Source: Photobacterium profundum SS9
GTDB lineage: Bacteria; Pseudomonadota; Gammaproteobacteria; Enterobacterales; Vibrionaceae
Assembly: GCF_000196255.1 (NCBI RefSeq)
Contig: NC_006370.1
Coordinates: 2,245,411-2,309,410, forward strand
Direction: 5' to 3'
Length of the DNA stretch: 64,000 nucleotides
Made by a program: the position numbers and the translations under genes. Shown here one piece after another: positions 2,606-63,269 of the stretch. The notes beneath the pieces are model-generated. The model saw nothing but the letters and a program-made list of their open reading frames with translations, was not told the DNA's origin and did no database searches. The stretch's first letter is position 1; each line of letters begins with the position of its first letter.

Positions 2606-2650
2606 TATACCCAAGTCACCTCAATATGCTCGTTTCAGCGAGAATTTATT
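2606..2650. repeat. Truncated end of the 266-bp miniature element
   Basis: TATACCCAAG, a CACCTCA segment, then GCTCGTTTCAGCGAGAATT reproduce the inverted right end of the full copies at 24619-24884 and 52100-52365. The match stops after about 45 bp. It lies between the pseudouridine synthase gene and the acetyltransferase gene. Confidence 0.65.
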
Positions 2651-2667
2651 GCTTTGTATCTGTATTC

Positions 2668-13734: not shown

Positions 13735-13890
13735 GCCGCAAATTGAAATAGAAAACTTCGTTCCGCTACTTAGTAATAAGTGTTGTTGTCCTGAAGAGCT
13801 TCAAACTTCTTTTGTCCATAAGTAATACATTATGTTGGCTTAAGTGCGCAATAATGCGTAATAACACAATACAAATTCAGGAGACATAAA
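13735..13890 (+). promoter_or_regulatory. Long 5' leader of cold-shock gene 2
   Basis: Contains the same ordered blocks as 13106-13254: CGCAAATTGAA, GAAAACTTCGT (13751-13761), CCTGAAGAGCTTCA and TCAGGAGACA, with unrelated sequence between them. Conservation in blocks while the spacers differ points to a functional leader. Confidence 0.6.
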
Positions 13891-14100
13891 ATGTCTAAAA
13901 CAACAGGTATCGTTAAGTGGTTTAACGACGAGAAAGGTTTCGGCTTCATCACTCAAGATAACGGCGGTGCTGACGTATTCGTTCACTTCCGTGCAATCAC
14001 TGGTGACGGATTCAAATCTCTTGCTGAAGGCCAGAAAGTATCTTTTGACGTTGAGCAAGGCCAGAAAGGTCCTCAAGCTGCAAACGTTGAAATCGCATAA
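13891..14100 (+). CDS. CspA-family cold-shock protein 2
   Basis: A 69-residue cold-shock protein with intact RNP1 (KGFGFITQ) and RNP2 (VFVHF). It differs from the upstream paralogue mainly at the N-terminus ([13 protein letters not shown]) and C-terminus ([20 protein letters not shown]). AGGAG precedes the ATG at a normal distance. Likely roles are RNA chaperoning and antitermination after a temperature drop; the pair may divide constitutive and cold-induced duty, which the sequence cannot show. Confidence 0.95.
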
Positions 14101-14123
14101 TTCGCTAATTAATTAGTGATCTT

Positions 14124-14150
14124 AAAAGGGTATCTTACGATACCCTTTTT
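14124..14150 (+). terminator. Terminator of csp gene 2
   Basis: AAAAGGGTATC and GATACCCTTTTT form a strong hairpin ending in T. It may also serve the convergent ddl gene. Confidence 0.85.
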
Positions 14151-14197
14151 GTTTTATAGCAATCAGTATTTAGTCAACACGCAATGCGAGGCATGAC

Positions 14198-21356: not shown

Positions 21357-21379
21357 ATATACCCAAGTCACCTCAGTGC
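21357..21379. repeat. Terminal fragment of the miniature element
   Basis: TATATACCCAAGTCACCTCA is the terminal inverted repeat of the 266-bp element; nothing else of it remains here. Confidence 0.5.
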
Positions 21380-21525
21380 TATTTACTCGGTTAAAATTAG
21401 TTACCTAACCAATAGACTGTCAAAAAAATGATCTATCGTTACTTTTTTGACAGCTCATATTTGAATTATTCACATCAAAAATATATCCTCTCCCCACTTA
21501 CCTAGAAAGTAAAAAAGCGCATCTA

Positions 21526-24389: not shown

Positions 24390-24973
24390 CCACCTCTCCT
24401 TGGCTTTATATGCTTCACGACATTAATTTTTGAAATTGCTTGATGGTATGTCAGTTCACCTTCCGTTTTATGAAAGCGCTCGTAAAACCAAGCATCTAAC
24501 GTTCCAGAGTAAATCGCGCGAGCACCACCGAGAGGGATCTCTAATGCCGCTGTACTGCCAACCCATACAGCCATAACAAAGCCAATTTCTTGAAGGTTTA
24601 AGCCTCGCGATTGAAATATATACCCAAGTTACCTCAAGATGCAGGATTCAGAGTGACCTCAACTTGTTTAATTCAAGGAAAATATGTGTAGGAATGGCAC
24701 TCCCTTTCAAACATATTTGACACAGAAGTAGACACGTTGAGTCACTCCCGAAGGGCGAGTTTTATTGGGCTCTATACGGTGTTGCTCATTTTCAACGTAG
24801 AACCACTAGGTCTATAAATGAGCGCCTTGCCTAGAGCCCAATAAATTCTCGCTGAAACGAGCACCTTGAGGTAGCTTGGGTATAAGCACCAAGACTGGAA
24901 TAGCAATACCTACTATTGCCCAGTGTAGTCCCTGATGACCCGCATATATCCAAAGTAATTTGTTCTTATTCAC
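24380..24973 (-). pseudogene. MFS transporter remnant split by a miniature element
   Basis: The first segment (GTG at 24973, AAGGA upstream) encodes a first membrane helix, LLWIYAGHQGLHWAIVGIAIPVLVLI. The frame then enters the 266-bp element at 24884. Removing that element plus one TA rejoins it in frame to FQSRGLNLQEIGFVMAVWVG and LEIPLGG. The gene was already damaged: LEIPLGG jumps straight to ARAIYSGTLDAWF, losing the loop and about two helices, and the end after AISKINV is replaced by an unrelated tail. Only about 90 residues of a roughly 400-residue transporter remain, so it is non-functional. Confidence 0.75.
24619..24884. mobile_element. 266-bp palindromic miniature element (MITE), copy 1
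   Basis: Terminal inverted repeats begin TACCCAAG and end CTTGGGTA, flanked on both sides by TA, a duplication typical of Tc1/mariner/IS630-type insertion. Inside are four stems: CTCAAC/GTTGAG, AATATGT/ACATATT, TTTATTGGGCTCTA/TAGAGCCCAATAAA and GCTCATTT/AAATGAGC. It has no coding capacity. A second full copy of identical length is at 52100-52365. Confidence 0.9.
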
Positions 24974-25141: not shown

Positions 25142-26906
25142 GTAACTTCTCAATAAGTCGGGGCATAAGCGAAGAGTGATCCTGATAGTGTTTTTAAAAT
25201 TAATGTTAGGATCTCTAAGATCGGCTTGATTGATCCTTTCAAACCTTCAAAATAGTAGCCTCTAACCACGTAGAGCCTTTTGTCTCAATGAAAATTAATC
25301 TCCCAGACATTCCAGAGTCAGAGCAAACCCCTTTGGTAAAAGGCTTAATTGGGATCATTGAGCAGCTTTCCGATACGGTTGAGCGCCAACAAGAAGAAAT
25401 CACCCTCCTTAAAGACGAGATCAACGTACTAAAAGGGCAGAAAAAACGGCCCAAGTTCAAGCCGAGTAAACTCGACACAAATACCGATGAAAAGTCAGAC
25501 CAAGGCTCGACTGATAACAAACGGTCCGGCTCTACCAAGCGTAGCAAAAATCAAACGCTGACCATTCATCAGGATAACATTGTCCAGCCAGAACAACCTT
25601 TACCTATCGGGGCACGATTCAAGGGCTACCGAGATTTTGTCGTCCAAGAGCTAGAGATACAGTCGTGCAATGTACGTTATCGCTTAGCTTGCTATCTATT
25701 ACCTGATGGTTCGACGGTTACCGCTACCTTGCCTAATGGACTAGCAGGCCAACACTTTGGCACTCGACTAAGAAGCTACATCCTCTATCAGTATCATCAA
25801 TGTCAGGTCACTCAGCCTCTGTTGTTGGAACAACTTAGAGAATGGGGTATCGATATTTCCAGTGGCCAATTAAATCGCTTATTGACCGAAAATCATGATG
25901 ATTTGCATGAAGAAAAAGCCGAACTTCTGGCTGCAGGCCTGCAAAGCACTGGCTATATCACAACAGATGACACCGGAGCTAGGCATCAGGGCAAGAACGG
26001 TTTTGTCACCCACATAGGCAATGAGTGGTTTACTTGGTTTCAAAGTTCAGACCGAAAAAATCGGATCAACTTCCTGTCACTCCTTCGGGCTGGAAACAAG
26101 GGTTATCAGGTGAACACCTGCGCACTAAACTATATGGCGACAAATAAACTCCCTGCTCCCCAGTTAGCATTGTTAGCAAACACACCAGTGACCAACTTTG
26201 GATGTGAAGAGGAATGGTCTGCTCATCTAGTTCAGCTGGGTATTGTCGTAAAAAGGCATATTCAAATAGCGACTGAAGGTGCCCTATTGGGTTGCGCGTC
26301 AGAGAATGAAGCTTTGGGTAAACTCGCTGTGATCAGTGATGGTGCTGGACAGTTTAAGGTTCTACAACATGGTTTGTGCTGGGTACATGCGGAGCGGTTG
26401 GTCCACAAGCTTATTCCGTTGAATGAGGGACATCGAGAAGACATCGCACAAGTACGTGATGAGATTTGGTCGTTCTACAAGGAGCTGAAAGAATACAAAA
26501 AACAGCCTTGCGACACGAAGAAATCAGCTCTGTCGAAGGAGTTCGATCGGCTATTTACTCAGAAAACCCGCTATGAGCTCCTTAATCAGCAACTAAAGCG
26601 GTTAAACAAATTAAAATCAAGCTTATTGCTGGTATTGGAACGACCAGAAATTCCAATCCATACAAATGGAAGCGAAAATGATCTAAGGGAGCAGGTCAAG
26701 CGGCGCAAAGTCAGTGGAGGTACTCGTAGTGATCTTGGCCGACAATGCCGAGATACCTTTTCCAGCCTGAAAAAAACGTGCCGAAAATTAGGGGTTTCCT
26801 TCTGGAAATATCTCAACGACCGAATTTCTCAAAGTAATGTAATCCCATCTTTAGGCTCTCTGGTGCTCCAGAAAGCCCACCCTGCCTCGGCTTATTGAGA
26901 AGTTAC
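25142..26906 (+). mobile_element. IS66-family element, copy 2 (1765 bp)
   Basis: Inverted ends GTAACTTCTCAATAAG at 25142 and 26906, flanked by a perfect 8-bp duplication ACTACAAT (25134-25141 and 26907-26914). It has the same length as copy 1, in inverse orientation. It inserted exactly at the stop codon of the neighbouring membrane-protein gene; the duplicated bases supply the TAG. Confidence 0.92.
25288..26898 (+). CDS. IS66-family transposase, copy 2
   Basis: A 536-residue DDE transposase identical to the one at 6933-8543 except for Thr249 in place of Ala. The catalytic Asp, Asp and Glu are intact (TTDDTGARH, ISDGAGQFK, NGSENDLRE), so both copies could be active. The stop codon lies 9 bases inside the right end of the element. 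Confidence 0.92.
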   Translation: MKINLPDIPESEQTPLVKGLIGIIEQLSDTVERQQEEITLLKDEINVLKGQKKRPKFKPSKLDTNTDEKSDQGSTDNKRSGSTKRSKNQTLTIHQDNIVQPEQPLPIGARFKGYRDFVVQELEIQSCNVRYRLACYLLPDGSTVTATLPNGLAGQHFGTRLRSYILYQYHQCQVTQPLLLEQLREWGIDISSGQLNRLLTENHDDLHEEKAELLAAGLQSTGYITTDDTGARHQGKNGFVTHIGNEWFTWFQSSDRKNRINFLSLLRAGNKGYQVNTCALNYMATNKLPAPQLALLANTPVTNFGCEEEWSAHLVQLGIVVKRHIQIATEGALLGCASENEALGKLAVISDGAGQFKVLQHGLCWVHAERLVHKLIPLNEGHREDIAQVRDEIWSFYKELKEYKKQPCDTKKSALSKEFDRLFTQKTRYELLNQQLKRLNKLKSSLLLVLERPEIPIHTNGSENDLREQVKRRKVSGGTRSDLGRQCRDTFSSLKKTCRKLGVSFWKYLNDRISQSNVIPSLGSLVLQKAHPASAY

Positions 26907-52099: not shown

Positions 52100-52365
52100 T
52101 ATACCCAAGCTACCTCAAGATGCAGGATTCAGAGTGAGCTCAGCGTGTTTAATTCAAGGAAAATGTGTGTAGGAATGGCATTCCCTTTCAAACACATTTG
52201 ACACAGAAGTAGATACGCTGAATCACTCCCGAAGGGCGAGCTTTGTTGGGCTCTATGCGGTGTTACTTATTTCCAACGTAGAACGACTAGGTCTATAAAT
52301 AAGTGCCTTGCCTAGAGCCCAACAAATTCTCGCTGAAACGAGCATCTTGAGGTAACTTGGGTATA
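52100..52365. mobile_element. 266-bp palindromic miniature element (MITE), copy 2
   Basis: Same length and layout as 24619-24884, with ends TACCCAAG/CTTGGGTA flanked by TA. The same four stems are kept by paired changes: TCAGC/GCTGA, AATGTGT/ACACATT, TTTGTTGGGCTC/GAGCCCAACAAA and ACTTATTT/AAATAAGT. It lies 51 bp upstream of maeA, so it may affect that gene's promoter or leader. Confidence 0.9.
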
Positions 52366-54242: not shown

Positions 54243-54281
54243 TATACTCAAGTTACTTCAAGATGCTCGTTTCAGTAGCTT
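54243..54281. repeat. Diverged end of the miniature element
   Basis: TATACTCAAGTTACTTCAAG then ATGCTCGTTTCAG matches the right-end inverted repeat with two changes; the rest of the element is absent. The gap 54282-54395 holds only the promoter region of the next gene. Confidence 0.55.
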
Positions 54282-63201: not shown

Positions 63202-63269
63202 AGAAATGACTCTGAATCTTGCACTTTGAGATCACTCTGAATCCTGCATCTTGAGCTAGCTTGGGTATA
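63202..63269. repeat. Miniature-element end with internal duplication
   Basis: CTTGGGTATA (63260-63269) is the element end. Inward, ACTCTGAATCCTGCATCTTGAG and a near copy ACTCTGAATCTTGCACTTTGAG lie in tandem, a duplication of the subterminal block that full copies carry once. Nothing of the central palindromes remains. It ends three bases before the stop of ldtD. Confidence 0.55.

Follow-up and report, generated by a model that had tools for sequence, protein, structure and literature searches.

Bacterial MITEs are usually seen as empty leftovers of insertion sequences. Those of the RUP and Correia type, which derive from IS630 elements, insert at a TA target that they duplicate, have short terminal inverted repeats and no gene, and reach high copy numbers. 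REPINs and BIMEs, associated with a RAYT transposase, consist of two inverted hairpins that form one mobile unit without terminal repeats or target duplication. We know of no RUP or Correia element with two homologous, covarying, strand-polar hairpins, or with a core that recurs under different ends.

Other repeats come close in description. ERIC (RU-1) and YPAL (RU-2) of enterobacteria and vibrios are intergenic, form stable stem-loops and have TA ends with TA duplication (PMC2759123), and a second source describes ERIC as one long stem-loop (PMC2267715). MITEs of the sulfur bacterium Thiomargarita have TATA ends, a long hairpin and many copies, and their authors liken one of them to Correia (PMC4853749).

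The 266-bp element described here, from Photobacterium profundum SS9, is like RUP and Correia elements in its TA target and duplication, short terminal inverted repeats, lack of a gene and high copy number, but unlike them, as we know them, in its two homologous, covarying, strand-polar hairpins and in a core that occurs under varying ends. It resembles ERIC and YPAL as an intergenic stem-loop repeat with TA ends and TA duplication, and is set apart from them by length (127 bp for ERIC and 168 bp for YPAL versus 266 bp) and by its two inverted homologous arms. The likeness to the Thiomargarita MITEs lies in the TATA ends, the long hairpin and the many copies. With REPINs and BIMEs the element shares two inverted hairpins in one mobile unit, but it has terminal repeats and a TA duplication.

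Two copies of a repeat in P. profundum

The window, a 64,000-nucleotide stretch of the SS9 genome (contig NC_006370.1, positions 2,245,411 to 2,309,410), holds two full copies of the element and several fragments:

24619..24884, + strand: element copy 1, flanking/terminal TA included (TA TACCC...GGGTA TA)
24619..24642, + strand: left terminal inverted repeat of copy 1
24651..24747, + strand: arm A hairpin of copy 1 (model R2, 106.1 bits on +, 31.1 on −)
24748..24754, no strand: centre between the arms of copy 1, a possible mini-hairpin with pairs 130:136 and 131:135 nearly invariant
24755..24852, − strand: arm B hairpin of copy 1 (model R1, 109.9 bits)
24861..24884, − strand: right terminal inverted repeat of copy 1
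52100..52365, + strand: element copy 2, whose site is empty in three relatives
52132..52228, + strand: arm A hairpin of copy 2 (model R2, 108.4 bits on +, 33.0 on −)
52236..52333, − strand: arm B hairpin of copy 2 (model R1, 105.1 bits)
2606..2656, − strand: short relic of one element end, without core (E 4.5e-11)
54243..54275, − strand: short relic of one element end, without core (E 1.4e-5)
63213..63269, − strand: short relic of one element end, without core (E 2.5e-11)
21358..21380, no strand: possible terminal-repeat relic, weak, without core (E 0.22)

A preliminary description of this DNA had reported two copies of equal length at these positions, and both are indeed 266 bp long and contain every stem string that it named. 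Its observation of compensating paired differences in the stems holds, although some differences do not fit. The copies differ at 22 positions, 10 of which make up five exact pair-for-pair replacements, in each of which one Watson-Crick pair takes the place of another (element positions 44:119, 66:96, 146:224, 166:205 and 169:202); omitted from that description were pair 39:123 (CG in copy 1, GA in copy 2), four one-sided differences at paired positions (46:117, 48:115, 158:212 and 21:246) and six differences outside pairs. No open reading frame of at least 100 amino acids overlaps either copy, and the element is without a transposase gene. An IS66-type transposase gene lies shortly downstream of copy 1 (25288-26898, + strand).

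The host genome comprises 6.40 Mb, with large contigs of 4,085,304 and 2,237,943 bases. A 22-base end pattern, with two mismatches at most, occurs in it 180 times forward and 171 times in reverse (control 0), which corresponds to up to about 175 copies, part of them solitary ends; at least 40 full-length copies were scored from 300 first-look candidates. Matches to the element are present in 35 of 52 genomes of the genus, SS9 included. From 185 non-overlapping matches, those covering at least 255 model positions gave, after removal of repeats, 151 copies from 23 genomes, 148 of them unique. Length is 262-268 bp in 147 of the 151, even at 68-75% identity to copy 1.

Several size variants were also seen. 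A group of ~280-bp copies, outside the analysed set, occurs in several genomes (G011:C13:54888-55169, G001:C45:121180-121460 and G042:C502:1218-1500, among others), a mini-version of ~85 bp consists of two ends with little core (L055, 1501-1585), and a 67-bp pair of ends lies at G000:C3:85462-85528. Seven plasmid records match the element (four from Vibrio, two from Pseudoalteromonas and one from Photobacterium), and a search of phage sequences gave no match.

A conserved two-hairpin fold

The element folds into a stem formed by the terminal repeats, arm A (positions 33-129), a short centre and arm B (137-234). RNA folding z-scores are −12.75 (+ strand) and −9.99 (− strand) for copy 1 and −12.22 (+ strand) for copy 2, and in each case none of 200 shuffled sequences folds as well. 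Across the 148 unique copies, 95.8% of 15188 pair cells hold standard pairs, a figure somewhat favoured by the structure having been derived from one sequence in the set; when the 3′ partners are slid by 1 to 3 columns, standard pairs fall to 29-43%.

Covariation was scored on alignments made from sequence only. For arm B, with 38 of the 42 representatives (37 of them distinct), the score is 0.452 versus 0.171 for shuffled alignments and at most 0.082 for slid ones; for arm A, with 29 of the 42 (28 distinct) after exclusion of rows that were more gapped and distant, it is 0.341 versus 0.154 and at most 0.115. In both Photobacterium arm sets four of five covariation measures exceed all 500 shuffles; the fifth, which counts further pair types, is reached by 57 and 221 of the 500. 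RNAalifold on all 148 copies returned an unfavourable covariance term on both strands, and its consensus was left unused. In a set of 54 arms from many genera, whose alignment was fitted to the model and thus leans to the structure, covariation is 0.952 (0.222 when shuffled, no more than 0.162 when slid), two-sided change occurs in each of the 36 pairs, and 94.0% of cells pair.

The conserved letters are CAAGGC (5′ side), AAC-G/A-C-n-G (3′ side) and TAG...CTA (tip). Because these kept letters sit at stem edges or outside stems, they point to recognition by a partner. No Rfam model covers the element: the window yields only the cspA thermoregulator RNA (13741-14153, + strand), locus L001 yields nothing, and among 14 distant loci only tRNAs pass the cut-off, with microRNA and snoRNA matches far below theirs. 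One sub-cut-off Rfam match overlies an arm in L305 (33 of 98 bits).

Homologous arms with opposite polarity

Model R1, built from arm B on the − strand, recovers sense matches to arm A from each of the nine Photobacterium loci that hold this arm (19.6-52.9 bits) and scores arm A antisense at no more than 20.1 bits. Model R2, built from arm A, gives sense matches to arm B at seven of the eight loci (28.5-49.9 bits, missing L054) and scores it antisense at no more than 17.5 bits. Because the stems are palindromic, R1 also scores the reverse complement of arm B itself, at 22.4-35.9 bits, and the cross-arm R1 matches in the three most distant loci (L046, L051 and L048; 24.9-35.7 bits) lie within this stem background. 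The cross-matches indicate that arms A and B are homologous and arranged head to head.

Read in + strand letters, changes from Watson-Crick pairs lead to G-U versus A-C 76 against 38 times in arm A and 35 against 69 times in arm B. On a tree built from the same columns, with ties resolved towards Watson-Crick pairs (as in all branch counts given here), internal branches show 19 versus 6 in arm A (p 0.015) and 6 versus 22 in arm B (p 0.0037), and tips show 57 versus 32 (p 0.011) and 29 versus 47 (p 0.05). On its own strand, each arm prefers G-U over A-C by 1.6-1.8 to 1 on tips and by 3.2-3.7 to 1 on internal branches; the strand that favours G-U is + for arm A and − for arm B. Some pairs are mostly G-U, such as 50:113 in 119 of 148 copies, and 41:59 of arm B is G-U in 20 of 37 sequences. 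The terminal-repeat pairs (1-24 with 243-266) show an A-C excess of 51 versus 19 G-U, mainly on tips.

Spreading lineages and resident copies

The excess of paired over unpaired substitutions, which the preliminary description expected of further copies, is found on the internal branches of the tree and is absent on its tips and between resident copies. On internal branches, two-sided changes outnumber changes to non-standard pairs on the own strand in both arms (45 versus 26 in arm A, 45 versus 21 in arm B), whereas tips show the reverse (23 versus 85 and 25 versus 91). The terminal-repeat stem shows 7 two-sided changes on internal branches versus 14 or 20 to non-standard pairs, depending on the strand. 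Among orthologous copies at shared insertion sites (14 pairs, including one triple counted more than once), two-sided change accounts for 1 of 45 changed arm pairs. Since resident copies hardly compensate and internal branches do, pairing is preserved in the copies that found others, not through repair at each site.

These counts bear on both explanations that had been put forward for the paired differences. Selection of the fold is supported, by the two-sided changes and the polarity, for a folded RNA or single-stranded DNA; selection of a plain cruciform is less likely, because the terminal-repeat stem is without a two-sided excess and the polarity is strand-specific. Conversion of the arms against each other during mobility finds no support, given the single two-sided change at the 14 shared-site pairs.

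The broader view that selection plays no part, and that paired changes arise in one step through template switching between the arms (quasipalindrome correction) or gene conversion, strikes us as very improbable. Such correction is known to act on long imperfect hairpins, and resident copies are less diverged than the 200 bp on either side of them (79 of 3715 versus 338 of 5535 positions, 2.9 times less, in 13 of 14 pairs, with one reversed), which conversion between copies could explain. However, such processes leave two-sided change rare among orthologous copies unaccounted for, as they do its scarcity on tips and abundance inside the tree in both arms, and template switching predicts no G-U polarity. 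The lower divergence of resident copies could itself reflect gene conversion or constraint. One orthologous pair (G001_L038 and G032_L171) has 0 of 266 differences in the copies and 39 of 400 in the flanks, by conversion, constraint or repeated insertion.

Mobility and changeable ends

The element is mobile: three relatives (G011, G018 and G031) lack copy 2 at its site, and the empty site in G011 (...GTTATACTAC...) fits a 262-bp insertion with a duplicated TA, as read from the letters of this one relative; the position of the cut within TATA is ambiguous. Among the matches listed for G011, copy 1 is represented by its left flank only.

The ends resemble one end of resident IS630-type elements, so the element is most likely an IS630-type MITE. 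That end matches the element-end pattern, three of whose 24 positions are degenerate, at 21-22 of 24 positions in the SS9 genome; the other end matches at 17 of 24, as do unrelated sites in the same loci. The resident IS630-type elements encode DDE_3/HTH transposases. Of 35 DDE_3 matches in SS9, 20 were fetched, and 13 of these have similar but non-identical ends and seven (208-aa frames) different ones. An autonomous element with exactly the ends of the repeat was not found in SS9, in the genus genomes or in one scan of genome contigs: IS630 kin occur in 25 of 52 genus genomes, often as fragments, and neither they nor the 11 loci taken from the contig scan have identical ends, and ORF translations inspected by eye showed no transposase adjoining the solitary ends in L052, L056, L059 and L164.

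An origin from Y1 (RAYT) transposases was rejected. Among the 20 of 33 Y1 loci fetched, none carries the end motif at the boundaries deduced from three copies, and in this too the element differs from REPINs and BIMEs. The Y1 family itself (G000, L213-L232), in which 27 of 33 matches share the top score and a 147-aa frame, represents a burst of an IS200-like element in SS9.

Homologues of the hairpins extend well beyond the genus. R1 matches at least 136 of 394 genomes sampled from the order (38 of 115 genera), at least 32 of 369 from the class (28 of 272 genera) and at least 34 of 398 from the phylum, seven of the last outside the class and two of those weak; the samples overlap, and strict filters with few scored candidates per genome make the counts lower bounds. 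Both arms adjoin at E ≤ 0.01 in 51 of 70 fetched loci; each of these 51 has its left arm on the + strand and its right arm on the − strand, both reading inward. The remaining 19 have a single arm, two distant arms or cuts at contig ends. In a Methylophaga metagenome-assembled genome, a 315-bp relative abuts an IS630 copy (L270, 1621-1935), and R1 scores its arms at 30.2 and 23.3 bits.

The inverted ends around this core vary (TATACCCAAG, ATACCAATCnGTATAA, ATACCAATTCYATTAATTA, AGTACCTTAACA, AGAGCACCATATAG, GTACCAAC and TATTAACCCGGCAACC, and further TACTAACCCGAACACTGG, GGGAAGGTCTGCACGA, AGGAACCTCYGAT, GGGAAACACTGATTAATGC, TTAGGCTCTGTTGACG, CTAGGGCCTGTTCACACTACGCC and others). Terminal repeats of 25-38 bp, perfect or imperfect, are present in 25 of 29 loci tested, and shorter ones in L309 and L328 (4 bp each) and L316 (18 bp); a perfect 70-bp repeat in L307 resembles an assembly palindrome and was excluded from the count. 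Judged by eye, the same core looks to lie inside unrelated ends, which may alternatively have diverged deeply from one ancestral end. The GGGAAGGTCTGCACGA-like ends form 18 pairs in three genomes that belong to a single genus, and 13 of these pairs, with a spacing of 261-264 bp, may enclose the core. These ends are possibly IS5-like, a reading left unsettled by TA on both sides in ~4 of the 18 pairs.

The near-constant, symmetric distance of the core from the ends would suit a sub-terminal transposition site needed by the IS630-type transposase or a DNA-bending partner, with the structure as a by-product, and so would the keeping of structure in spreading lineages and not in residents. Yet resident IS630 elements with similar ends are ~1.1 kb long and nearly filled by their gene, so that the core would not fit, the core persists while the ends look entirely different, and a double-stranded site does not need base pairing. 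We consider such a site unlikely.

Gene context

Of 146 copies placed by crude ORF picking, which is blind to disrupted genes and left two unassigned, 84 lie between co-directional, 31 between divergent and 29 between convergent genes, and the background sites number 49, 15 and 24. Co-directional copies divide 45 versus 39 between the strands without preference, as an orientation-proof design predicts. No open reading frame of at least 90 amino acids runs through any of the 146 copies. A terminator or 3′-end element was rejected as a candidate, there being no excess at gene 3′ ends. One study reports 460 putative sRNAs, 150 of them in repeated regions, and the part of it available names no such repeat (PMC3505737). 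Among the open-access papers searched, no title, abstract opening or consulted passage describes the double-hairpin core; a subscription-only paper may exist.

Sparing of reading frames and the 2.9-fold lower divergence of residents relative to their flanks would fit a repeat of the ERIC/REP kind that serves the host as an mRNA stabiliser or terminator and is selected individually at each site. Against such a role, which we think highly unlikely, gene 3′ ends are not enriched, the conserved internal-loop letters are unneeded for simple stability, and the change of resident copies without compensation argues against a host function at each site.

The strand polarity and the conserved unpaired residues would suit a folded single-stranded DNA equally well as an RNA. 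The hairpins could act on the lagging-strand template or during transfer, each arm being bound by a replication or recombination protein in the manner of a primosome assembly site or an attC-type hairpin, and the head-to-head order would put one arm on the right strand whichever way the element is oriented. Gene orientation without preference agrees with this, and no transcript is known. However, preference for G-U over A-C (1.6-1.8 to 1 and 3.2-3.7 to 1 on the own strand) and mostly-G-U pairs are more typical of RNA, and IS630-type transposition is understood to use double-stranded ends. Action as single-stranded DNA is possible but rather doubtful; we favour an RNA function as about twice as probable.

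Discussion

The explanation that we prefer, in which our confidence is about even, is a TA-inserting MITE moved by IS630-type transposases, with a conserved two-hairpin cargo whose fold serves the spreading lineages, probably as an RNA bound by a host factor. The element would be non-autonomous and moved in trans by transposases of the IS630 type (Tc1/mariner superfamily) able to recognise its ends. It would differ from an ordinary MITE in its cargo, a head-to-head pair of homologous ~98-nt hairpins, each predicted to have a long stem, a CAAGGC / AAC-R-C internal loop, an 8-bp stem and a TAG-loop-CTA tip. Each hairpin would be favoured in the strand reading inward from its own end, so that in either landing orientation a transcript through the element should have one hairpin in the working sense. 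The fold likely has a function, putative and so far undescribed, that would matter in spreading lineages, most likely through recognition of the RNA by a conserved host factor; for example, insertions may be made tolerable through altered transcription read-through, RNA decay or processing. This explanation builds on the absence of copy 2 in relatives, the TA insertion (one site), covariation, polarity, arm homology and the core in other ends, from which we infer the transposase, the host factor, the benefit and a role as RNA in preference to single-stranded DNA.

More tentatively, the true unit may be the double-hairpin core itself: a selfish RNA or single-stranded DNA module, independent of any one transposase, that has spread through Gammaproteobacteria in locally accepted terminal repeats and persists because, whichever way it lies, its fold engages a conserved host machine.

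In this element it is the interior that is conserved, and the ends that vary. It offers a testable case of a structured RNA or single-stranded DNA module, unmatched in Rfam, that governs the spread of a repeat in many proteobacterial genomes. The G-U polarity test, together with the comparison of ends, is a simple route to finding more such elements. If the partner is RNA polymerase, Rho, an RNase or a primosome protein, the element would represent a new way for mobile DNA to coexist with its host.
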